Below are positions 19,024 through 56,708 of a DNA stretch of 64,000 bases, piece after piece; within the stretch, counting starts at the first letter, position 1, and each line of letters begins with the position of its first letter. The notes under the pieces are model-generated. The model saw only the letters and a list, made by a program, of their open reading frames with translations. It searched no databases and was not told where the DNA came from. Source of the stretch: an uncultured Collinsella sp. (GTDB lineage Bacteria > Actinomycetota > Coriobacteriia > Coriobacteriales > Coriobacteriaceae); NCBI GenBank assembly GCA_944321445.1, contig CALULJ010000005.1:1-64000 (forward strand), in the 5' to 3' direction. The position numbers and the translations under genes are program-made.

Positions 19024-20223
19024 ATGGCGAGTCGCGTCTGCCTGGTCCACTATCACGAGATTGGACTGAAGGGCAAGAATCGCGCCCGTTTCGAGCACAT
19101 CCTCATGGATAACCTGAAGGCGGCCTTGGCCGCCTTTTCCGTGTCCACGATCGTGCGCATCTCGGGCCATATCCTCGTGACGTTCTCCGCGCCCGGCGAG
19201 GCCGAGCGCGCCTTCGACACCATCGCGCGCACGCCCGGCGTCGCGCGCGTGTCGCTCGCCTTCCACACCAACCGCGACCCGCACGAATACTGCGAGGCGG
19301 CGGTGCGCGCCCTGCGCGAGGCGGGGGACTTCTATAGCTTCAAGGTGGCGGCGCGCCGGTCGAACACCGATTACGAGCTCACCTCCATCGATCTCAACCG
19401 CCAGGTGGGCGAGGTGCTGTGCGAGGCCTTCCCGGACAAGAAGGTCCTCATGCACGACCCGGACGTGCAGGTGCACGTGCTCGTGGTGCAGGGTAGCGTC
19501 TACGTGTACGCGCGCAGCGAGCGCGGCGTGGGCGGTCTTCCCCAGGGGAGCGCCGGCAAGGTCATGACGCTGCTTTCGAGTGGCATCGATTCGCCGGTTG
19601 CCACCTGGATGCTCGCGCGCCGCGGCGCCGTTCCCGTGCCGGTGCATTTCTCGGGCAGGCCGCAGACGGCCGATACGAGCGAGTTTCTGGTGCAGGACAT
19701 CATCTCCGCCCTGGCGCCGTCGGTGCAGATCGGCCGCCTGTACGTCGTGCCGTTCGGCGACTGCCAGCGCGAGATCTCGCTCGCATGCCCCAGCGATCTG
19801 CGCGTGATCATGTATCGTCGCGTGATGTACGCGGTGACCGAGCGCCTGGCGGCCATCGAGGGCGCCAAGGCCATCGTGACGGGCGAGTCGCTCGGTCAGG
19901 TGGCGTCTCAGACGCTCGAGAACATCATGGCGGTGAACGAGGTCGTGAGCCTGCCGGTGTTCCGTCCGCTCATCGGCTCGGACAAGCAGGAGATCATCGC
20001 GCGCGCCAAAGATATTGGCACCTACGACATCTCGACGCAGGATGCGCCGGACTGCTGCACGCTGTTCATGCCGCGCCGCCCCGAGACCCATGCCAAGCTG
20101 GACGCCGTCCACGCCGCGTGGGACATGTTCGACCACGAGGCAATGATTCAGCACCTGGTCGATACCGTCGAGCACATCGACTATCCCGCGCCCTGCTACC
20201 ACGCGCCGCGCTCCCGCAAGTGA
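19024..20223 (+). CDS. thiI: tRNA 4-thiouridylation / thiamine sulfurtransferase
   Basis: ThiI transfers sulphur to U8 of tRNA and, in many bacteria, to ThiS for thiamine synthesis. The 399-residue product has the N-terminal ferredoxin-like and THUMP domains (about 1-165) and the PP-loop adenylation domain (LLSSGIDSPVATWML near 180-194). The C-terminal rhodanese domain of E. coli ThiI is absent, as in Bacillus, so an external sulphur donor (NifS-type desulfurase) is expected. It begins 5 bases after rpoZ. A hairpin repeat and a terminator-like stem follow. Confidence 0.93.
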   Translation: MASRVCLVHYHEIGLKGKNRARFEHILMDNLKAALAAFSVSTIVRISGHILVTFSAPGEAERAFDTIARTPGVARVSLAFHTNRDPHEYCEAAVRALREAGDFYSFKVAARRSNTDYELTSIDLNRQVGEVLCEAFPDKKVLMHDPDVQVHVLVVQGSVYVYARSERGVGGLPQGSAGKVMTLLSSGIDSPVATWMLARRGAVPVPVHFSGRPQTADTSEFLVQDIISALAPSVQIGRLYVVPFGDCQREISLACPSDLRVIMYRRVMYAVTERLAAIEGAKAIVTGESLGQVASQTLENIMAVNEVVSLPVFRPLIGSDKQEIIARAKDIGTYDISTQDAPDCCTLFMPRRPETHAKLDAVHAAWDMFDHEAMIQHLVDTVEHIDYPAPCYHAPRSRK

Positions 20224-20252
20224 CGCACTTCTCCCCTGGGGAGAAGTGCGTC
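20222..20252. repeat. 15-bp-arm palindrome, copy 1
   Basis: GACGCACTTCTCCCC / GGGGAGAAGTGCGTC around a single central T. It overlaps the thiI stop codon. The same palindrome, differing only in the central base (A), lies at 56678-56708. Confidence 0.85.
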
Positions 20253-25014: not shown

Positions 25015-25977
25015 ATGGCGGAAGCGTCTTTGCTGCCTGCATACCTGATTGTGGGCGCCGACGAATACAAGCGCTCCCGCGCGGTGGAGCGCATGAAGGC
25101 GCGCCTCGAGAAGAGCGGCATGGCCGCGTTCAACCTCGACGAGCGCGACATGACGCGCGACCCCGCCATCGACGACATCATCGCCTCGCTCAACACCTTC
25201 CCCATGGGCACGGACTTTCGCTTGGTCATTTTGGACGGGTGCGATCGCTTGCCCAAGGCCGTGAGCGAGCCGCTCGTGGAGTACTTCGCCGACCCGTCGC
25301 CCACCACCGTGTGCCTGGTGGTAGCGAACACGCTCGCCAAGAACACGCGGCTGTACAAGGCCATCGCCAAGATCGACAAGAAGGCCGTGGTCGACTGCAC
25401 GCCCAAGAAGGCGTGGGAGATGCCCAAGCAGGTCGTGTCCATGGCGCGCGCACACGGTAAGACCATCGGGCTGCCGGCGGCCGAGGCCCTGGTAAGCCGT
25501 GCGGGCGAGCAGTCGCGCATGCTCGACAACGAACTCAAGCGCCTGTCGCAGATGGTCGAGGGCCCCGAGATCGCGCTTGCCGACGTCGAGCGCCTGGTGA
25601 TGCGTACCGCCGAGGTCAAGCCCTGGGACTTCCTGAACGCGGTGTCTGCCCGCGACCTGCCGCGTGCCCTCGAGCTGCTGGCGCTCCAGCCGGACCGCAG
25701 CGAGGTGCGCCTGTTCTCGCTTTTGGTAACGCGGCTGCGCGAACTCATCACCGCCAAGGCGCTCGATGCGCGCGGAGCCGGCCGCGAGCTGGCAAGCACG
25801 CTGGGTGTGCAGAGCTGGCAGGTGAAAAACCACCTTGGCTGGGCGCGCCGCTACAAGATGTCCGAGCTCATCGACGCGCTTTCAGCCGCAGCCGACGTCG
25901 AGGCAGCCCTCAAGGGCTCCGCCGATTCCGCCCTAGCCCTGCGCCTCTGGGTCATCCAAATCTGCACGGGAAAATAG
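25015..25977 (+). CDS. holA: DNA polymerase III delta subunit
   Basis: HolA opens the sliding clamp as part of the clamp loader. The 320-residue product starts LPAYLIVGADEYKRSRAVERM, has the delta N-terminal fold with DFRLVILDGCDRLPK near 68-82, and the AAA+-like lid and collar domains with DFLNAVSARDLPRAL near 205. ATG 25015 has a strong GGAGGT seven bases upstream; the earlier ATG 24982 lacks one. holA downstream of comEC is a common synteny. The last codons overlap a REP-like repeat that begins at 25968 and supplies the stop codon (GGAAAATAG). Confidence 0.92.
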   Translation: MAEASLLPAYLIVGADEYKRSRAVERMKARLEKSGMAAFNLDERDMTRDPAIDDIIASLNTFPMGTDFRLVILDGCDRLPKAVSEPLVEYFADPSPTTVCLVVANTLAKNTRLYKAIAKIDKKAVVDCTPKKAWEMPKQVVSMARAHGKTIGLPAAEALVSRAGEQSRMLDNELKRLSQMVEGPEIALADVERLVMRTAEVKPWDFLNAVSARDLPRALELLALQPDRSEVRLFSLLVTRLRELITAKALDARGAGRELASTLGVQSWQVKNHLGWARRYKMSELIDALSAAADVEAALKGSADSALALRLWVIQICTGK

Positions 25978-26096
25978 GGACAGGCACTTTTTCCCACTAT
26001 GCCGTGCGTCCTGAAAACGTTTTCGGTTCTTTGAAGGCTGTCCCGCGGACGCTGGGTTGTTCTTATCGGGAAAATAGGGACAGGCACTTTTTTCCC
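25968..26096. repeat. two REP-A units after holA
   Basis: Direct copies of the unit GGGAAAATAGGGACAGG-CACTTTTT-CCC at 25968-25995 and 26068-26096, 72 bases apart. The first supplies the holA stop codon (AAATAG). The spacer holds no gene. Confidence 0.9.
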
Positions 26097-30787: not shown

Positions 30788-30820
30788 CGGCGCCGGCGGG
30801 AATTTCCCCCGCCGGTGCCG
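30788..30820 (+). terminator. hairpin after the Ig/SLH gene
   Basis: CGGCGCCGGCGGG pairs with CCCGCCGGTGCCG around AATTTCC. The tail CTCTGT is weakly T-rich. Confidence 0.6.
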
Positions 30821-30821
30821 C

Positions 30822-30945
30822 TCTGTCCCCAATGGGGACGGGGGTCCCAGGGGACAAAATGTCCCCTCCCGGGACAGGCCTCGTGGCGTCTCGGGGGACG
30901 GGGGTGGCAGGCGCCATTTTGGCGTCTGGGGGGACGGGTTTCCTG
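30822..30945. repeat. REP-B type repeat cluster
   Basis: GC-rich palindromic stretch with the half-palindromes GGGGACAAAATGTCCCC and GGCGCCATTTTGGCG and repeated GGGGACGGGGGT-GCAGG motifs. Reverse-complement relatives lie at 36797-36895 and 53510-53608. No coding sequence. Confidence 0.75.
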
Positions 30946-30962: not shown

Positions 30963-31022
30963 GGGAAAAAAGTGCCTGTCCCTATTTTCCCAAGCGGGAA
31001 AATAGGGACAGGCACTTTTTTC
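30963..31022. repeat. inverted pair of REP-A units before rpsT
   Basis: The unit at 30963-30991 is in reverse orientation and the unit at 30996-31022 forward (its last CCC is lost), so together they form a long hairpin with a 4-base loop. Confidence 0.9.
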
Positions 31023-31024
31023 AC

Positions 31025-33366: not shown

Positions 33367-33430
33367 GGGAAAATAGGGACAGGCACTTTTTTCCCAGCAA
33401 TGGGAAAAAAGTGCCTGTCCCTATTTTCCC
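33367..33430. repeat. perfect inverted pair of REP-A units between lepA and dusB
   Basis: Two 29-base units (33367-33395 and 33402-33430) are exact reverse complements with a 6-base loop AGCAAT. This is the cleanest example of the family in the window, and can act as a bidirectional terminator (A-rich 5', T-rich 3'). Confidence 0.93.
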
Positions 33431-34485: not shown

Positions 34486-34523
34486 AAAGCGGCCAGATCC
34501 AATTCACATATCGCAAGAGTATC

Positions 34524-34667
34524 TTTGCAAAAACTCGGCGGTTTGGATTGATTTTAAATGCCGGGTCCGTATTGGAATCCTTTTGACCTTGGCGTTTATG
34601 CTGGTCTAGAGGTTGCTTATGTAGACCCGTGCTAGAAAATCAATCCAAACCGCCGAGTTTTTGCAAA
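34524..34667. repeat. 144-bp palindromic element, copy 1
   Basis: Outer arms (34524-34550 and 34641-34667) begin TTTGCAAAAACTCGGCGG and are perfect reverse complements over about 27 bases. An inner stem GGGTC/GACCC follows, then a loop of about 60 bases. Related copies: 36604-36744 and 44564-44705. Confidence 0.9.
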
Positions 34668-34870
34668 GTGGGTCTGTGCGCCAAAAGGATGCATTCGCCT
34701 GAATGAAAAGGCGCAAAACACCGAACGCAAAGGGTGCAAAATACCGAATGGGCAGGGCGTAAAATCCCGAACGGCCAACAAAGCCCCTGGTAGTCAACGA
34801 TGATATGGCATGCAATCTCAAACGGCAGTGTGGGAATCGTCGCCCTAGGCATCAGGCTTGCTGAAAGGCA

Positions 34871-36603: not shown

Positions 36604-36744
36604 TGCAAAAAGTCGGGACTTTGGGCGGATTTTTAGCCTCGGGCCCGTATCGGCGCCGTTTCTACCTGCAGAAATACGAGGCCAGAAAGCCGCTTGTCTA
36701 AACCCGGGCTGAAAAATCCGCCCAAAGTCCCGACTTTTTGCAAA
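36604..36744. repeat. 141-bp palindromic element, copy 2
   Basis: Outer arms starting TGCAAAAAGTCGGGACTTTG pair perfectly over about 28 bases with the arm ending at 36744; inner stem AGCC-CGGG/CCCGGGCT. It lies directly after hemW. Together with the repeat at 36797 it fills the 400-base gap before dnaJ. Confidence 0.9.
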
Positions 36745-36796
36745 ACGGTCAAAGCAAAGAACGGCGAGCGTCATCGCCTAGGCTCCGGCACATCCA

Positions 36797-36895
36797 GGCC
36801 TGTCCCAAATGGGGACAAAATGTCCCCAACGACCCCCGTCCCCAGAGAGGACAAAGTGGCGCGTGGCACCCCCGTCCCCAGAGGCGCCATTTGCC
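36797..36895. repeat. REP-B type repeat
   Basis: Contains TGGGGACAAAATGTCCCC and twice CCCCCGTCCCCAGAG, followed by GGCGCCATTTGCCC. Related in reverse orientation to 30822-30945 and forward to 53510-53608. Confidence 0.75.
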
Positions 36896-44510: not shown

Positions 44511-44563
44511 GTTGCCCGCCTTTTGTGTCACTTTCGCGTTGGAGACGGGTCAGCGTCTGTCGG

Positions 44564-44705
44564 TTTGCAAAAAGTCCGGACTTTGGGCGGATTTTTCGCC
44601 CCGGGTCCATATCGGCGGCCTTTTGACCTCGTGTTTTCGCAGCTAGAATTGGCGTGTTTATAGACCCGGGGTCAAAAATCCGCCCAAAGTCCGGACTTTT
44701 TGTAC
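44564..44705. repeat. ~140-bp palindromic element, copy 3
   Basis: Arms starting CAAAAAGTCCGGACTTTGGG pair perfectly with the right arm (to 44704). An almost contiguous inner stem CCCCGGGTC/GACCCGGGG gives about 37 paired bases. The element lies between recO and the methyltransferase gene, whose start is 73 bases further on. Confidence 0.9.
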
Positions 44706-45619: not shown

Positions 45620-47449
45620 ATGGCACGACTTCATGTCATGGAGCGCAGCCATGCCCAGGCCGTCATGGACGACCTGCATGATGCGCTCGGAAGGCGCTTG
45701 GCCGCACGGTCGCTCGCGCCCTGCCCGGTCGAGTTCACGGCGGCGCTCGTCAACCTGTGCGCCACGCAGAGCTGCGGCAAGTGCACGCCTTGCCGCGTGG
45801 GTCTGAAGGCCCTGGCCGACCTGCTCGAGGATGTGCTGGCGAACCGCGCCACGCTCGAGACCATCGACCTCATCGAAAAGACCGCGAACACCATCTATCT
45901 GTCGAGCGACTGCGCCATCGGCTACGAGGCCGGCTCCATGGCGCTCATGGCCGTGCGCGGCTTCCGCGACGACTTCGAGCACCACGTGCGCGAGCACGCC
46001 TGCGGTTTCGAGCAGAACGAGCGCGTCCCGTGCGTCGCCGGCTGCCCGGCCAACGTCGACATCCCGGGCTACATCTCGCTCGTGGAGGCCGGTCGCTACA
46101 CCGATGCGGTCCGTCTCATCCGCAAGGACAACCCGCTGCCCATCGTGTGCGGCCGCGTGTGCGAGCACCCGTGCGAGATGCACTGCCGTCGCGGCATCGT
46201 CGACGACCCACTGAACATTCTGGCACTCAAGCGCTACGCTACCGACCATATGGAGAGCGACTACCGTCCGCACATGGCCGAGGCCACCGGCAAGCGCGTC
46301 GCCGTCATCGGCGGCGGCCCGGCCGGCATCTCGTGCGCCTACTACCTGGCGCTCATGGGTCACAAGGTCAAGATCTTCGAGCAGCGCAAGCACCTGGGCG
46401 GCATGCTGCGCTACGGCATTCCGAGCTACCGCCTGCCGCGCGAGGACCTCGAGGCCGAGATCCAGTGGATCTTGGACTGCGGCATCGAGGTCGAGACCGA
46501 GCGCTCCATCGACGGCATGGACCGCGACCGCATGCGCACCACCTACGACGCGGTGTATCTGGCCATCGGCGCCCACAGCGATAAGAAGCTGGGCCTGGAG
46601 GGCGAGGACGCCGAGGGTGTCGTGTCTGCGGTGCAGATGCTGCGCGCCATCGGCGACGGCGAGATGCCGGACTTCACCGGCGAGCGCGTCGTGGTCATCG
46701 GCGGCGGCAACGTCGCCATGGACGTTGCGCGCTCGAGTGTGCGCCTGGGCGCCGAGAAGGTCATCATCGCGTACCGCCGCCGCATCTGCGACATGACCGC
46801 GCAGGACGCCGAGATTGCCGGCGCCGAGGCGGAAGGCTGCCAGATCATGGAGCTGAACGCCCCTGTGCGTATCGAGACCACCGAGGACGGCCGTGTCGCC
46901 GGCGTTGTGGTTCAGCCGCAGATCATCGGCGCCCCGCGCCGCGGCCGTCCCGCGCCCCGCGCCGCCGCCGCTCCCGAGCAGCTCATTCCGTGCGACCGCG
47001 TCATCGTGGCCATCGGCCAGGACATCGACTCCGGGTCGTTCGAGGCCTGCGGCATCCCATGCAAGTGGGGCCGCATCATCACCGACACCGAGGGCGCCGT
47101 GCCCGAGTTCGAGGGCGTGTACTCCGGCGGCGACTGCCAGACCGGTCCCGCGACCGTCATCCGCGCCATCAACGCCGGCAAGGTCGCCGCTGCGAACATC
47201 GACCATTATCTCGGGTTCGACCATACCATCGAGCTCGACGTCGACCTGCCGCCCGTGCAGTTCAAGGGCAAGCGCTTGTGCGGCCGCTGCGAGCTCAAGG
47301 AGCGCGACGCCGCTGAGCGCATCGGCGACTTCGAGATGGCCGAGATCGGTCTCACCGAGGAGGAGGCGCACCAGGAGGCTTCGCGCTGCCTGCGCTGCGA
47401 TCACTTCGGCTTCGGTGCGTTCCGTGGGGGGAGGAATTTCCAGTGGTAA
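45620..47449 (+). CDS. NuoF-tail/GltD-like flavoprotein, NAD(P)H partner of the hydrogenase
   Basis: The 609-residue product fuses two modules. Residues 1-125 resemble the C-terminal iron-sulphur domain of NuoF/HydB, with C52-GK-C55-TP-C58 and a later Cys near 98, but the FMN/NADH-binding part of NuoF is missing. From about 137 it follows the GltD/NfnB flavoprotein type: cysteine motifs CVAGCP and CGRVCEHPCEMHC for 4Fe-4S centres, FAD site VIGGGPAGISCAYYL near 229, NAD(P) site VIGGGNVAMDVARS near 357, and a C-terminal CGRCELKE...RCLRCD cluster. It overlaps hydA by 7 bases, so it probably exchanges electrons between NAD(P)(H) and the hydrogenase. GAGGGGAG precedes ATG 45620. Confidence 0.85.
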   Translation: MARLHVMERSHAQAVMDDLHDALGRRLAARSLAPCPVEFTAALVNLCATQSCGKCTPCRVGLKALADLLEDVLANRATLETIDLIEKTANTIYLSSDCAIGYEAGSMALMAVRGFRDDFEHHVREHACGFEQNERVPCVAGCPANVDIPGYISLVEAGRYTDAVRLIRKDNPLPIVCGRVCEHPCEMHCRRGIVDDPLNILALKRYATDHMESDYRPHMAEATGKRVAVIGGGPAGISCAYYLALMGHKVKIFEQRKHLGGMLRYGIPSYRLPREDLEAEIQWILDCGIEVETERSIDGMDRDRMRTTYDAVYLAIGAHSDKKLGLEGEDAEGVVSAVQMLRAIGDGEMPDFTGERVVVIGGGNVAMDVARSSVRLGAEKVIIAYRRRICDMTAQDAEIAGAEAEGCQIMELNAPVRIETTEDGRVAGVVVQPQIIGAPRRGRPAPRAAAAPEQLIPCDRVIVAIGQDIDSGSFEACGIPCKWGRIITDTEGAVPEFEGVYSGGDCQTGPATVIRAINAGKVAAANIDHYLGFDHTIELDVDLPPVQFKGKRLCGRCELKERDAAERIGDFEMAEIGLTEEEAHQEASRCLRCDHFGFGAFRGGRNFQW

Positions 47450-49185
47450 AGCTGATCATCGACGACCGCGAGGTCGAGGTACCCGAGCATACGACCATCC
47501 TCGATGCCGCCGCGAGCGTGGGCATCAAGATTCCGACGCTGTGCTATCTGCGCGACCTGAACGAGGTCGGCGCCTGCCGCGTGTGCGTGGTTGAGATCGA
47601 GGGCATCGACCAGCTCGTCGCCGCTTGCAACAACTACGTGCTCGACGGCATGGTCGTGCACACCAACAGCCAAAAGGCCCGCGTCGCGCGCAAGACGAAC
47701 GTGGAGTTCCTGCTGTCGCAGCATGACTCCGAGTGCACGAGCTGCACGCGTTCGGGCAACTGCTCGCTGCAGTCGCTCGCCAACGACCTTGGCATCACCG
47801 ACCTGCCGTTTTCCAAGCATCTCGAGGGCTTCCGCTCCGACCCCACCTTCCCGCTCATTCGCAACAACGACAAGTGCATCAAGTGCCTGCGCTGCATCCA
47901 GATTTGCGAGAAGGTCCAGGCGACGGGTGTGTGGGACCTCACGAGCCGCGCGAGCCACACCGTGGTGAACGTCGCCGGCGGCAAGAAGCTGTCCGAGACC
48001 GACTGCGCCCTGTGCGGCCAGTGCATCACCCATTGTCCGACCGGCGCCCTGCGCGCCCGTGACGACACCGAGCGCGTCTTCGACGCCCTGGGCGACCCCG
48101 ATAAGATCTGTCTTGTGCAGGTGGCGCCCGCAGTGCGCACCTCCTGGGGCGAGAGCCTGGGCCTCGCGCACGAGGACGCGACGGTCAAGCGCCTGGCGAG
48201 TGTCCTGCGCATGATGGGCTTCGACTACGTATTCGATACCAATTTCTCGGCCGACCTCACCATCATGGAAGAGGGCTCCGAGCTGCTCGAGCGCATCAAG
48301 AAGGCCGGCGAGCCCGGCGGCGAAAACATCAAGTTCCCCATGTTCACCTCCTGCTGCCCGGGCTGGATTCGCTACGTCAAGTCGCATTACCCCGACATGC
48401 TCGACCAGGTGTCCACCTCCAAGTCGCCGCAGCAGATGTTCGGCGCTGTGGCCAAGACCTACTACGCCGACGCGCTCGGCGTGGACCCGTCGAAGATCTT
48501 CAGCGTGTCCATCATGCCGTGTGTGGCCAAGAAGTCCGAAGCCGCGCTGCCCACGATGGTGGGGGAGAACGGCGACCCCGACGTGGACGTCGTCCTTACC
48601 GTGCGCGAGGTCGACCGCATGATTCGCGCGTCGCACATCGACGCGACGACCCTGCCCGAGCAGGAGCTCGACCAGCCGCTTGGCGTGGGTACCGGTGCTG
48701 CCGTCATCTTCGGCGCGACCGGTGGCGTCATGGACGCGGCGCTGCGCTCCGCCTACTTCCTGGCGACGGGCGAGAACCCCGACCCGGATGCCTTCAGCGG
48801 CGTGCGCGGTCTGGACGGCTGGAAAGAGAAGACCTTCGATTTGGCCGGGACACCCCTGCGCGTGGCCGTGGCGCACGGCTTGGGCAACGCCCATAAGCTC
48901 ATCGAGGCCCTGCGCGCCGGCGAGGTCGAGTACGACTTCGTCGAGATCATGGCCTGCCCCGGCGGCTGCGTGGGTGGCGGCGGTCAGCCCATCCACGACG
49001 GCCGCGAGCTCGCCGGCGAGCGCGGCGACGTGCTGTGGGGTCTCGACGCCGAGGCGCCGATCCGCTTCAGCCACGAGAACCCCAGCGTGAAGCTCGTCTA
49101 CGACGACTACCTGGAGCATCCGCTCTCCGAGCGCGCCGAAGAGCTCCTCCACACCGACCACACCGCCTGGTCCATGGGAAAATAG
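47443..49185 (+). CDS. hydA: [FeFe] hydrogenase, group A
   Basis: This enzyme makes or consumes H2 at an H-cluster. The 580-residue product has an N-terminal 2Fe-2S domain (CYLRDLNEVGACRVC...AACN), a His-Cys3 4Fe-4S domain (HDSECTSCTRSGNC), two ferredoxin-type clusters (CIKCLRCIQICEK, CALCGQCITHCP), and the H-cluster loops L1 TSCCPGW (302-308), L2 MPCVAKKSE (358-366) and L3 MACPGGCVGGGGQP (503-516). All ligands are present. GTG 47443 follows GGGGGGAGGAA. The domain order matches group A multimeric hydrogenases of anaerobes. Maturases HydEFG are not in the window. The stop lies inside a REP-A unit. Confidence 0.95.
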   Translation: MVKLIIDDREVEVPEHTTILDAAASVGIKIPTLCYLRDLNEVGACRVCVVEIEGIDQLVAACNNYVLDGMVVHTNSQKARVARKTNVEFLLSQHDSECTSCTRSGNCSLQSLANDLGITDLPFSKHLEGFRSDPTFPLIRNNDKCIKCLRCIQICEKVQATGVWDLTSRASHTVVNVAGGKKLSETDCALCGQCITHCPTGALRARDDTERVFDALGDPDKICLVQVAPAVRTSWGESLGLAHEDATVKRLASVLRMMGFDYVFDTNFSADLTIMEEGSELLERIKKAGEPGGENIKFPMFTSCCPGWIRYVKSHYPDMLDQVSTSKSPQQMFGAVAKTYYADALGVDPSKIFSVSIMPCVAKKSEAALPTMVGENGDPDVDVVLTVREVDRMIRASHIDATTLPEQELDQPLGVGTGAAVIFGATGGVMDAALRSAYFLATGENPDPDAFSGVRGLDGWKEKTFDLAGTPLRVAVAHGLGNAHKLIEALRAGEVEYDFVEIMACPGGCVGGGGQPIHDGRELAGERGDVLWGLDAEAPIRFSHENPSVKLVYDDYLEHPLSERAEELLHTDHTAWSMGK

Positions 49186-49274
49186 GGACAGTCCCTTTTT
49201 TCCCACTTGCCGCGGCTGGGACCAGTTCCCGGCCGCGGCTTTTTTGGGAAAATGGGGACAGGCACTTTTTTCCC
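49176..49274. repeat. two REP-A units after hydA with a hairpin between
   Basis: Variant unit at 49176-49204 (its GGGAAAATAG supplies the hydA stop) and unit at 49246-49274. Between them CCGCGGC-TGGGACCAGTTCCC-GGCCGCGG forms a stem followed by CTTTTTT, a likely terminator of the hydrogenase operon (49211-49245). Confidence 0.85.
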
Positions 49275-49383: not shown

Positions 49384-49778
49384 TACTGGGCGCGCTCGAC
49401 ATCGCACTGCTGTGGGCGCTCGATGCGGGCCACCTCCCCTGGGACGGAACGGGAGGAATGCTACTGATTGCGTTGCTCGTGCTTATTGTCATAAGCTGCA
49501 TCGTGACGACCGTGCTTGCCCGGCCCGCACGGCGGATGGTAATCGGCTGGATGGCGCGGTACGGAGTGAACGCTGACGCGCCGGCGCTCGGGGCCTCTAC
49601 GCTGAAGGTTATGGCACCGATTGCCATTTCGAACGTGGCGTGTTTTCCGCAGCTCATTTTGCTCCTGGTCGTCGGTGCTCTCAACGGCCCACACATTTGG
49701 ATGGCCGTCATTCCCCTCATCGCTCTTATCCGAGTGGTTGCAACAACTCGAGCCCTTGCATCGCAACTGGGAAAATAG
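49356..49778 (+). CDS. hypothetical four-helix membrane protein (possibly 5'-frameshifted)
   Basis: The 140-residue product is strongly hydrophobic: segments near 2-22 (FGAASAVILGALDIALLW), 34-53 (GMLLIALLVLIVISCIVTTV), 94-111 (ACFPQLILLLVVGAL) and 114-128 (IWMAVIPLIALIRVV). No family is recognised. ATG 49356 has no ribosome site of its own, whereas ATG 49291, in another frame, has a good one, so it is translated by coupling, by frameshift, or not at all. The last codons and stop are inside the REP-A palindrome at 49769. The 52321 gene encodes a protein of similar general type. Confidence 0.55.
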   Translation: MLFGAASAVILGALDIALLWALDAGHLPWDGTGGMLLIALLVLIVISCIVTTVLARPARRMVIGWMARYGVNADAPALGASTLKVMAPIAISNVACFPQLILLLVVGALNGPHIWMAVIPLIALIRVVATTRALASQLGK

Positions 49779-49797
49779 GGACTGTCCCTATTTTCCC
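49769..49797. repeat. REP-A palindrome on the left of the RAYT gene
   Basis: GGGAAAATAGGGAC-TG-TCCCTATTTTCCC region, an almost perfect palindrome made from two half units. It provides the stop of the upstream gene. Confidence 0.88.
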
Positions 49798-49935
49798 ACC
49801 GTATGCGGTTTAGCGCATCCGCAGGGCGGGCATAAGAATCCAACCCTCTTCCGCTCACACCTGGGATCCCCAGGGTCGGTTTTGTGCGGCCATCCGGCCT
49901 TTTGGGACCCGTGTCGAGAAAGAAGAGGGTGTGAC

Positions 49936-50688
49936 ATGAGAACCGCAAGAAAACGTTCAGAGACCGGGTTCTACCATGTGGTGAATCGAGGCAACAACAA
50001 GCAGGCGATCTTCAAGGACGATGCCGACCGGCTGAAGTTCCTGGATCTCCTCGATCGCGCCAAGCGGGAATTCGGCATGCGCATCGTCGCGTGGTGCCTG
50101 ATGGGCAACCATGTGCACCTGTTGCTCGACGATGCGGACGATCGGCTGAGCGACTTCATGCACAAAGTCCTCGGCGGGTATGCCTCCTACCTGAACGCCC
50201 GTCACGGGCGCGGGGGACACCTCTTCCAGGGGAGGTTCTTCAGCGACCCCATTGAATCCGACGAGCGCCTGCTGGAATGCGTTCGCTACATCCTCAACAA
50301 CCCCGCCAACGCAGGCATCTGCTCAACCAACGTTTACCGGTGGAGCTCTTACTCCGAGTACGTGGGGGAGCCCTCCCTCACGGATACGTCGACCGTGCTC
50401 GATATGCTCGGGGGCACAGAACAGTTCGCAAGTTTCATCGCCGATCGAGACCGTTGCACCTATGCCTTCGAGGGCGGCAGGTATCTGCCGGACGACGAGG
50501 CCCGGCGCTTGGCAGTCGCCGTTGCAGGGCGTTTCGGGACGTCCTTGGACGGGGTGCGTACGTTGCGAGCACCAGCACGAAACGATGTGATCCGGGCATT
50601 GAGCGCCGGAGGCCTGAGCTACAGGCAGATAGAAAGCCTGTGCGGCATCAGCTCTTCCGTGGTCGGCCGTGCGATAGCGGGAAAATAG
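49936..50688 (+). CDS. REP-associated tyrosine transposase (RAYT, Y1/HUH type)
   Basis: RAYTs are single-copy, domesticated-looking relatives of IS200/IS605 TnpA that cut and spread REP palindromes. The 250-residue product starts SETGFYHVVNRGNNKQAIF, has the HUH metal motif in MGNHVHLLL near 49-57, the Tyr-bearing helix GGYASYLNARHGRGGHLFQGRF near 81-102, and VRYILNNPANAGI, all typical of Y1 transposases. The C-terminus adds a helix-turn-helix-like segment (GLSYRQIESLCGISSSVVGRAI). ATG 49936 is used; its AAGAGGG ribosome site can pair with CCCTCTT at 49844-49850. REP-A units sit on both sides, and its last codons run into the right-hand one. Confidence 0.88.
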   Translation: MRTARKRSETGFYHVVNRGNNKQAIFKDDADRLKFLDLLDRAKREFGMRIVAWCLMGNHVHLLLDDADDRLSDFMHKVLGGYASYLNARHGRGGHLFQGRFFSDPIESDERLLECVRYILNNPANAGICSTNVYRWSSYSEYVGEPSLTDTSTVLDMLGGTEQFASFIADRDRCTYAFEGGRYLPDDEARRLAVAVAGRFGTSLDGVRTLRAPARNDVIRALSAGGLSYRQIESLCGISSSVVGRAIAGK

Positions 50689-50707
50689 TGCCTGTCCCCA
50701 TTTTCCC
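50679..50707. repeat. REP-A unit on the right of the RAYT gene
   Basis: GGGAAAATAG-TGCCTGTCCCCATTTTCCC: left half as in REP-A, right half as its reverse complement with the CC variant. It contains the RAYT stop codon. Confidence 0.88.
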
Positions 50708-52147: not shown

Positions 52148-52213
52148 GGGAAAATGGGGACAGGCACTTTTTTCCCACCGAGGTGGGAAAAAAGTGCCTG
52201 TCCCCATTTTCCC
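52148..52213. repeat. inverted pair of REP-A units after the permease gene
   Basis: Units at 52148-52176 and 52185-52213 are exact reverse complements around CACCGAGGT and can terminate the permease transcript. The remaining 52214-52320 stretch holds only leader sequence of the next gene. Confidence 0.92.
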
Positions 52214-52320: not shown

Positions 52321-52830
52321 ATGGAGGCCATCAAGCGGTATTGGCGCGCTCTGGGAGAGGCCCCACGTGCGGCGATTTTCAAGTGTTTGCGGTTCGAGCT
52401 CGTTCTCAGCGTGGTGGTGACGATCATCTGCGTGATCGCTGCATGCATCGCGTTCGATGCGCTCGAGCGGGAGGATATACTCGGTGCATTTCAGGTGCCG
52501 GGCTTCCTGGTTTTGCTTTTAATCGTTTCCCTCATCTGCGTCATTTACGGCTACGTGCTCGTGTATCGCGCGTATCGCGCGGTCAAACAGTGGCTGTTCT
52601 CGTTGAACGCTTCGGGGTATCCCACCGAAGCGACCTGGACGGCAAAAGACACCTGGCTGCTTGCTGTGGCGCTTGTCGGCTTCACAGGCCTGCTGCCCAA
52701 TCTCATCGGCGTCATCACGGAAATCGCACTCGGTGAATGGTCCGCCTCCCTGCCTGGCATAGTTGTCTGGGTGGTCATCGGCATCGTTACGACGCCTATC
52801 GCTGCTCGGCGCTACATCCCCCTCTCGTGA
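52321..52830 (+). CDS. hypothetical membrane protein, four predicted spans
   Basis: The 169-residue product has hydrophobic segments near 24-46 (LVLSVVVTIICVIAACIAF), 58-80 (VPGFLVLLLIVSLICVIYGYVLV), 113-130 (TWLLAVALVGFTGLLPNLIG) and 143-158 (LPGIVVWVVIGIVTTPI). It starts with a short basic segment (MEAIKRYWRALGEAPRAAIF). ATG 52321 has GGGGAGGAG upstream. No family is recognised. It lies between REP-type repeats, a typical accessory location. Confidence 0.7.
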   Translation: MEAIKRYWRALGEAPRAAIFKCLRFELVLSVVVTIICVIAACIAFDALEREDILGAFQVPGFLVLLLIVSLICVIYGYVLVYRAYRAVKQWLFSLNASGYPTEATWTAKDTWLLAVALVGFTGLLPNLIGVITEIALGEWSASLPGIVVWVVIGIVTTPIAARRYIPLS

Positions 52831-52860
52831 AAGTTTGGGGCCTATCCCCAAACTTGCATG
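52831..52860. repeat. left inverted terminal repeat of a small cassette
   Basis: AAGTTTGGGGCC-TATCCCCAAACTTGCATG: a hairpin plus CTTGCATG. The right copy (53459-53488) is its reverse complement over 30 bases with one central mismatch. Confidence 0.88.
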
Positions 52861-53442: not shown

Positions 53443-53458
53443 GCGAGTGATTCCTTCG

Positions 53459-53488
53459 CATGCAAGTTTGGGGCCTGTCCCCAAACTT
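53459..53488. repeat. right inverted terminal repeat of the small cassette
   Basis: CATGCAAGTTTGGGGCC-TGTCCCCAAACTT, the reverse complement of 52831-52860 apart from the central base. Confidence 0.88.
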
Positions 53489-53509
53489 TAAGGGGGAGCG
53501 CTCGCCAGG

Positions 53510-53608
53510 GGGGGGGACCTGTCCCCGCGCGCGCCAAAGTGGCCTCCCTCACCCCCACGCACGCCAAAGTGGCGTTTGGCACCCCCGTCCCCAGAGACGC
53601 CAATCTGC
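53510..53608. repeat. REP-B type repeat before rpsO
   Basis: Contains GGGGACCTGTCCCC, two GCCAAAGTGGC palindromes (from about 53547 and 53569) and CACCCCCGTCCCCAGAGACG. Similar to 36797-36895. The remaining gap to rpsO contains a possible -10 TACTAT (53639-53644). Confidence 0.75.
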
Positions 53609-56675: not shown

Positions 56676-56677
56676 AT

Positions 56678-56708
56678 GACGCACTTCTCCCCAGGGGAGA
56701 AGTGCGTC
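56678..56708. repeat. 15-bp-arm palindrome, copy 2
   Basis: GACGCACTTCTCCCC-A-GGGGAGAAGTGCGTC, identical to 20222-20252 apart from the central base. Confidence 0.88.

Follow-up and report, generated by a model that had tools for sequence, protein, structure and literature searches.

A TIRYT-type transposase of Collinsella and the dispersed hairpin repeat that is probably its cognate element

Introduction

TIRYT genes, which are RAYT-like, lie between inverted repeats that contain the motif GGGGWSAS and are unrelated to GTAG REPs. Some of these TIRtron repeat families are self-complementary and occur in moderate numbers as single copies or dimers, and no obvious correlation between gene and repeat family was seen (Di Nocera et al. 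2013, PMC3733652). The TIRYTs are probably the same as TnpA-Y1 subclass 2.1, which has been equated with RAYT group 1 and is defined by an NHVH motif, FQ or WQ, Y-x-x-x-NP, and a C-terminal helix-turn-helix; for this subclass, automatic and manual searches near the genes yielded no REP-like sequences (Quentin et al. 2018, PMC6006769).

The canonical RAYT/TnpA-REP systems of E. coli, Pseudomonas, and Stenotrophomonas consist of a single-copy HUH-Y1 gene between inverted palindromes, the palindromes being dispersed as singles and inverted pairs and co-evolving with the gene (PMC2817692, PMC3116915, PMC8266576). The ends of GTAG REPs are also reported to supply TAG stop codons (PMC3733652). In E. 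coli, a potential for ribosome stalling by the termination codon is reported for nearly half of the REPs (PMC12306157).

Here we describe a RAYT, RAYT-A, and a palindromic repeat, REP-A, in the 2.36-Mb genome of a Collinsella (the source genome, G000). The window, which is the whole 64-kb stretch of DNA that was analysed, belongs to its contig C5. We assign a probability of about 0.8 to the reading that RAYT-A is a TIRYT-type RAYT and that it acts on REP-A, both as the cognate element that it recognizes and as a mobile unit that is non-autonomous.

Results

RAYT-A contains a Y1_Tnp domain (PF01797; E = 2e-13 in a Pfam profile search), with the HUH motif NHVH at residues 58–61 and a putative catalytic tyrosine, Tyr118. 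N58, H59, H61, and Y118 are invariant in an alignment of 54 homologues, and the protein has the HUH motif and single tyrosine in a Y1 fold that define the HUH/Y1 superfamily. Further motifs are HLFQGRF and RYILNNP. In the AlphaFold2 model (pLDDT 90), the C-terminal third is helical and the helices at about residues 212–247 form a helix-turn-helix-like tail; the Pfam match to HTH_28 is weak. The best PDB match of the model is 4er8 (E = 1.7e-7, TM 0.72 on target), the E. coli REP-associated transposase (TnpA-REP) bound to a REP hairpin. The phmmer matches to designed repeat proteins covered the helical C terminus and gave no evidence of relation.

In terms of published classes, RAYT-A displays all of the motifs of subclass 2.1, including FQ in place of WQ and the helix-turn-helix extension, at a similar length (250 aa against a median of 238 aa; PMC6006769), an assignment that rests on the published motifs and not on the published subclass profiles or tree. 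It differs from the canonical RAYTs in its extra C-terminal helix-turn-helix, and its score against the NCBIfam model REP_Tyr_transpos, 61 bits, lies under the cut-off of 80.

The initial annotation had placed 12 REP-A units in the window, as singles or inverted pairs, with the transposase gene between two of them. All 12 are present, compared with 0.01 expected from dinucleotide shuffles, and comprise two head-to-head pairs, one tail-to-tail pair, and otherwise singles (Table 1). A 29-nt IUPAC pattern matches 10 of them without mismatch, the units at 30996 and 25968 having one and two mismatches, respectively. The gene does lie between two units, the left one ending 138 bp before the start codon and the right one overlapping the gene end, which gives RAYT-A the two inverted copies of a dispersed palindrome that are characteristic of RAYTs. 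With 12 units in 64 kb, the window is about 3.5-fold enriched over the genome.

Table 1. Positions of RAYT-A and of the REP-A units within the window
Feature	Position	Strand	Remark
RAYT-A, TIRYT-type HUH/Y1 transposase	49936-50688	+	ATG start, 250 aa
REP-A, left flank of RAYT-A	49769-49797	-	perfect palindrome variant; also stop of orf140
REP-A, right flank of RAYT-A	50679-50707	-	overlaps gene end, gives TAG stop (GGA AAA TAG)
REP-A	49176-49204	+	at stop of [FeFe]-hydrogenase-like gene 47443-49185 (MGK*)
REP-A, single	49246-49274	+	3' of terminator-like hairpin
REP-A, one base short	25968-25995	+	at stop of holA-like gene (TGK*)
REP-A, single	26068-26096	+	
REP-A, tail-to-tail pair	30963-31024	30963-, 30996+	spacer AAGC
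REP-A, head-to-head pair (REPIN), 64 bp	33367-33430		spacer AGCAAT
REP-A, head-to-head pair	52148-52213		spacer ACCGAGGT

Across the source genome, the pattern search returned 119–124 REP-A units and its reversed-pattern control none. The analysis of elements and gene context took in 106 of the approximately 120 units, which resolve into 74 elements. Of these, 42 are singles, 23 are pairs in head-to-head orientation, and 9 are tail-to-tail pairs. The spacer ACCGGT is common to 16 of the 23 head-to-head pairs, which form a 64-bp perfect palindrome in a few sequence variants. These 64-bp pairs occupy loci that are unrelated and differ in their flanks, which is direct evidence for the dispersal of REP-A as a REPIN. 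The pair at 33367 is missing from the orthologous site in two relatives.

A single strand of REP-A is predicted to fold into a hairpin (z about −4 to −7, and −14 for the 64-bp pair). Some variants contain GGGGACAG, which agrees with GGGGWSAS, and others AGGGACAG. The core GGGAC[AG] is internal to the hairpin, in contrast to the GT[AG]G at the 5′ foot of canonical REPs. No GT[AG]G is present at the 5′ foot of the REP-A hairpin, and the bases outside it are variable except for a pyrimidine at −1 and a purine at +1 (T or C before 70 of 71 elements; A or G after 67 of 71). REP-A is thus not a canonical GTAG REP of the kind associated with RAYT groups 2 and 3, and its lack of a GTAG foot, together with the C-terminal helix-turn-helix of the protein, groups RAYT-A with TIRYT/subclass 2.1/RAYT group 1.

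Insertion into palindrome centres was considered as a general rule for REP-A and set aside, as it applies to few elements only (outer stem of at least five pairs, 5 observed and 0.4 expected). REP-A or its pair is nested in the middle of another REP-A or of a TIR-D-like palindrome at G000:C32:20172, C38:23, and C63:9998. The available relatives lie at species distance; no clean empty and filled site from a close strain was found among them and no insertion event was seen, and their divergence outside genes is too great for empty sites to prove a target-site rule.

Several other repeat families occur in the genus. REP-B (AAGTTTGGGGACAGGTCCCAAACTT) has 106 copies in genome G022, where perfect copies flank a RAYT that is 50% identical; 12 degenerate copies are present in the source genome and none in the other 43 Collinsella genomes. 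A close RAYT-B is absent from the source genome despite these degenerate copies, two of which, at 52826-52858 and 53457-53495, are in the window. Four genomes, G043, G016, G037, and G042, are rich in TIR-C (TGGGTTG...GGGGACGTG...CAACCCA), and in two of them, G043 and G042, the repeat was found to adjoin a RAYT. Exact copies of TIR-D stand on either side of a second RAYT of the source genome (G000:C2:12972-13697), which holds 66 copies, compared with one in the other 44 genomes; members in the window are at 30817-30938, 36794-36889, and 53546-53602. The window also carries a 32-bp palindrome, TGACGCACTTCTCCCC(T/A)GGGGAGAAGTGCGTC, in near-identical form at 20221-20252 and 56677-56708. It is probably another hairpin repeat family, and similar palindromes adjoin REP-A elsewhere (contigs C8 and C26). 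Long imperfect inverted repeats of about 140 bp (CAAAAAGTCSGGACTTTGGGCGGATTTTT...), a further MITE-like family, are present at 34523-34668, 36604-36747, and 44561-44702.

Some relative of RAYT-A is encoded in 39 of 45 Collinsella genomes, mostly at 35–50% identity, and orthologues beyond the source genome are found in only two members of this set (84% and 82% identical). The counts of REP-A are highest in exactly the three genomes with an orthologue at least 82% identical (119 in the source genome, 88 in G042, and 70 in G038). At least 28 units are found in only five of the 45 genomes, the other two being G037 (39 units) and G043 (28 units), which have no recognizable RAYT-A orthologue. In the remaining 40 genomes, all without an orthologue, the counts are 3, 2, and 1 in three and 0 in 37. 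The proposal of the initial annotation that REP-bearing genomes would carry this RAYT holds for the three richest genomes, with G037 and G043 as a qualification. G037 is only 87% complete and contains a short, unassigned RAYT fragment, and for these reasons it is uninformative. G043 is 99% complete; its 14 units within three mismatches include no intact consensus and no pair, as against 58 units, many of them in matched pairs, in G042 in the same comparison. Judged from these sequences, the degenerate single units of G043 look like decay after loss of the transposase.

The locus itself is conserved. In three species, RAYT-A is present as one copy per genome, in keeping with the single or low copy number typical of RAYTs, and has REP-A on both sides, with an [FeFe]-hydrogenase-like gene as one neighbour and a gene for a xanthine/uracil-type permease as the other. 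The source genome shares this arrangement with C. tanakaei ET10 and Ca. C. stercoripullorum. This fixed position bears on whether RAYT-A and REP-A together might be a mobile IS200/IS605-like element, with solo REP-A copies as its MITE-like relics. Inverted repeats flank the gene as IS ends do, and RAYT-A shares the HUH-Y1 catalytic core of IS200/IS605 TnpA (IS608, ISDra2), along with subterminal hairpins. However, there is no multicopy autonomous element: the gene has no duplicate in its genome, in which the short units exceed 100, it occupies one conserved locus in three species, and its score against the NCBIfam IS200 model, 16.9, is far under the cut-off of 55. We consider this reading very unlikely.

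Segments bounded by REP-A could also be gene cassettes moved by the RAYT. The 5-kb segment 25968-31024, which encodes a surface protein with an S-layer domain and a regulator of the LuxR type, is so bounded, and two relatives lack it at the orthologous site, but it has no second example, and movement of cassettes is in our estimation extremely improbable. The other candidates, orf140 and the gene at 52321-52830, were rejected: both are found beside the hydrogenase gene in relatives as well and are, for this reason, ancestral neighbours with REP-A at their ends and not inserts.

Across Coriobacteriia, 80 named RAYT loci were retrieved, 77 of them with enough flank for a repeat test. Matching inverted repeats on both sides (score of at least 16) are present at 68 of the 77 loci, compared with 4 of 227 when flanks were shuffled between loci. 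A GGG[AT]C[AG] core occurs in 59 of the 68 flanking repeats (on the sense strand in 55 and only on the opposite strand in 4) and in 8% of random stretches. A stem of at least seven pairs surrounds the core in 26 of 55 cases, against 2.3 expected with arms swapped between loci, and repeat similarity follows protein relatedness (Mantel r = 0.57; maximum of 1000 permutations, 0.13). Some families have GGGGACGG, which lies beyond the strict GGGGWSAS consensus. The enrichment of the core, the pairing of the arms, and the covariation of repeat and protein together indicate that the hairpin and its core are conserved and the stem is variable, lineage-specific hairpin stems being built around a common GGGAC[AG] core across Coriobacteriia. 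The prediction that the neighbourhoods of related RAYTs would have such repeats is borne out, in that both RAYT-A orthologues are flanked by REP-A and more distant RAYTs of Coriobacteriia are accompanied by a repeat of their own that contains this core.

In terms of gene context, REP-A is concentrated at gene ends. With genes called by a codon model that took known genes as its seed (long antisense ORFs occur in this high-GC genome), 67 of 68 elements lie outside genes. In gaps between tandem genes, 24 of 50 elements lie within 2 bp of the upstream stop codon or replace it, where 2.1 would be expected, and no gene starts within 12 bp of any of the 50. Single units are oriented with the gene in 22 cases and against it in 7. 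At least 16 genes, RAYT-A among them, take their stop codon from REP-A, in every case within GGA AAA TAG or a variant that differs from it in one base. The hydrogenase gene ends here in ATG-GGA-AAA-TAG, compared with ATG-CCC-CGC-TAG or ATG-CCG-AAG-TAG (MPR*/MPK*) in relatives that lack the repeat; as the TAG of these relatives aligns with that of the MGK* ending, the stop has remained at an unchanged codon. Two relatives, L183 and L186, lack REP-A here and instead have another hairpin, GACAAGTTGGTGC[CT]AGGTACAATCTTGTC, directly after this stop codon, which suggests that unrelated repeat families have landed at one and the same gene end. REP-B is likewise found near stops, and several genes use its terminal TGA as their stop codon. 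TIR-C shows a weaker excess near stops, some ten gene ends lying 2–13 bp from a copy. The stop-codon position parallels that of E. coli REPs and GTAG REPs and suggests convergence.

The excess at stops, the absence of gene starts within 12 bp, and the stalling potential of E. coli REPs (PMC12306157) would also be consistent with the notion that REP-A units are host-maintained regulatory hairpins, acting in the 3′-UTR, in ribosome stalling, or in transcription, that are under selection and merely decorate the RAYT gene. We regard this as unlikely: the presence of REP-A depends on an orthologous RAYT, the flanking of RAYTs on both sides recurs with different repeats at 68 of 77 Coriobacteriia loci, and identical 64-bp pairs stand at unrelated loci. 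A regulatory effect may be a by-product.

Discussion

The pairing of a RAYT with a REP in Collinsella that the initial annotation put forward is supported, with the qualification that REP-A is not of the GTAG kind. Against a cognate pairing of RAYT-A and REP-A stand the REP-A units in two genomes without a recognized orthologue, the degenerate REP-B copies without a close RAYT-B, the failure to see an insertion event among relatives at species distance, and the lack in REP-A of the GTAG motif to which TnpA-REP enzymes of the characterized groups respond. The annotation's further remark that it was not aware of a description in Coriobacteriia agrees with our search, which found no such description in a literature that lay mostly outside subscription journals. 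RAYT-A fits the described TIRYT/subclass 2.1 type and is thus new for the lineage and not a new kind.

The comparison with that type nonetheless reveals differences. TIRYTs were described in other lineages, whereas the system here is class-wide in Coriobacteriia, with more than 100 copies of REP-A and a dominant 64-bp REPIN; the correlation between gene and repeat family that was not obvious in the earlier work (PMC3733652) is strong within Collinsella. In contrast to the absence of REP-like repeats around subclass 2.1 genes (PMC6006769), those found here are abundant, hairpin-forming, and family-specific. With the canonical systems, the Collinsella locus shares the features outlined in the Introduction, including REP ends that give TAG stops.

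By analogy with TnpA-REP and the IS200/IS605 enzymes, we infer that RAYT-A binds, cleaves, and transposes REP-A. Single-stranded REP-A would fold into a hairpin with the conserved GGGGACAG core in its 5′ half, and RAYT-A would bind this hairpin on one strand, cut beside it through Tyr118, and rejoin REP-A elsewhere. The units copied would be the single REP-A and, chiefly, the inverted pair of 64 bp, with the RAYT-A gene itself staying at one locus and being inherited vertically. The build-up at gene 3′ ends may reflect an insertion preference or tolerance of REP-A only there. More tentatively, the subclass 2.1 RAYTs of Coriobacteriia might drive a distinct class of REPs that have a GGGGAC[AG] core inside the hairpin in place of a GTAG foot and that are inserted specifically at stop codons, regularly becoming the 3′ end (TAG or TGA) of host genes; we see this as a possibility on the doubtful side.

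No partner or function has been settled for the large subclass of RAYTs that lack GTAG REPs, and the Collinsella case offers a testable one. The transposase and its repeat are in hand. The genus also provides four repeat families whose host ranges match, as well as a natural series of losses, with intact REP-A pairs where the gene is present and decayed singles where it is not. The class-wide hairpins, with stems swapped around one core, make the rules of recognition directly testable, and the stop-codon position connects hairpins that are mobile with the ends of genes in a genus common in the gut.
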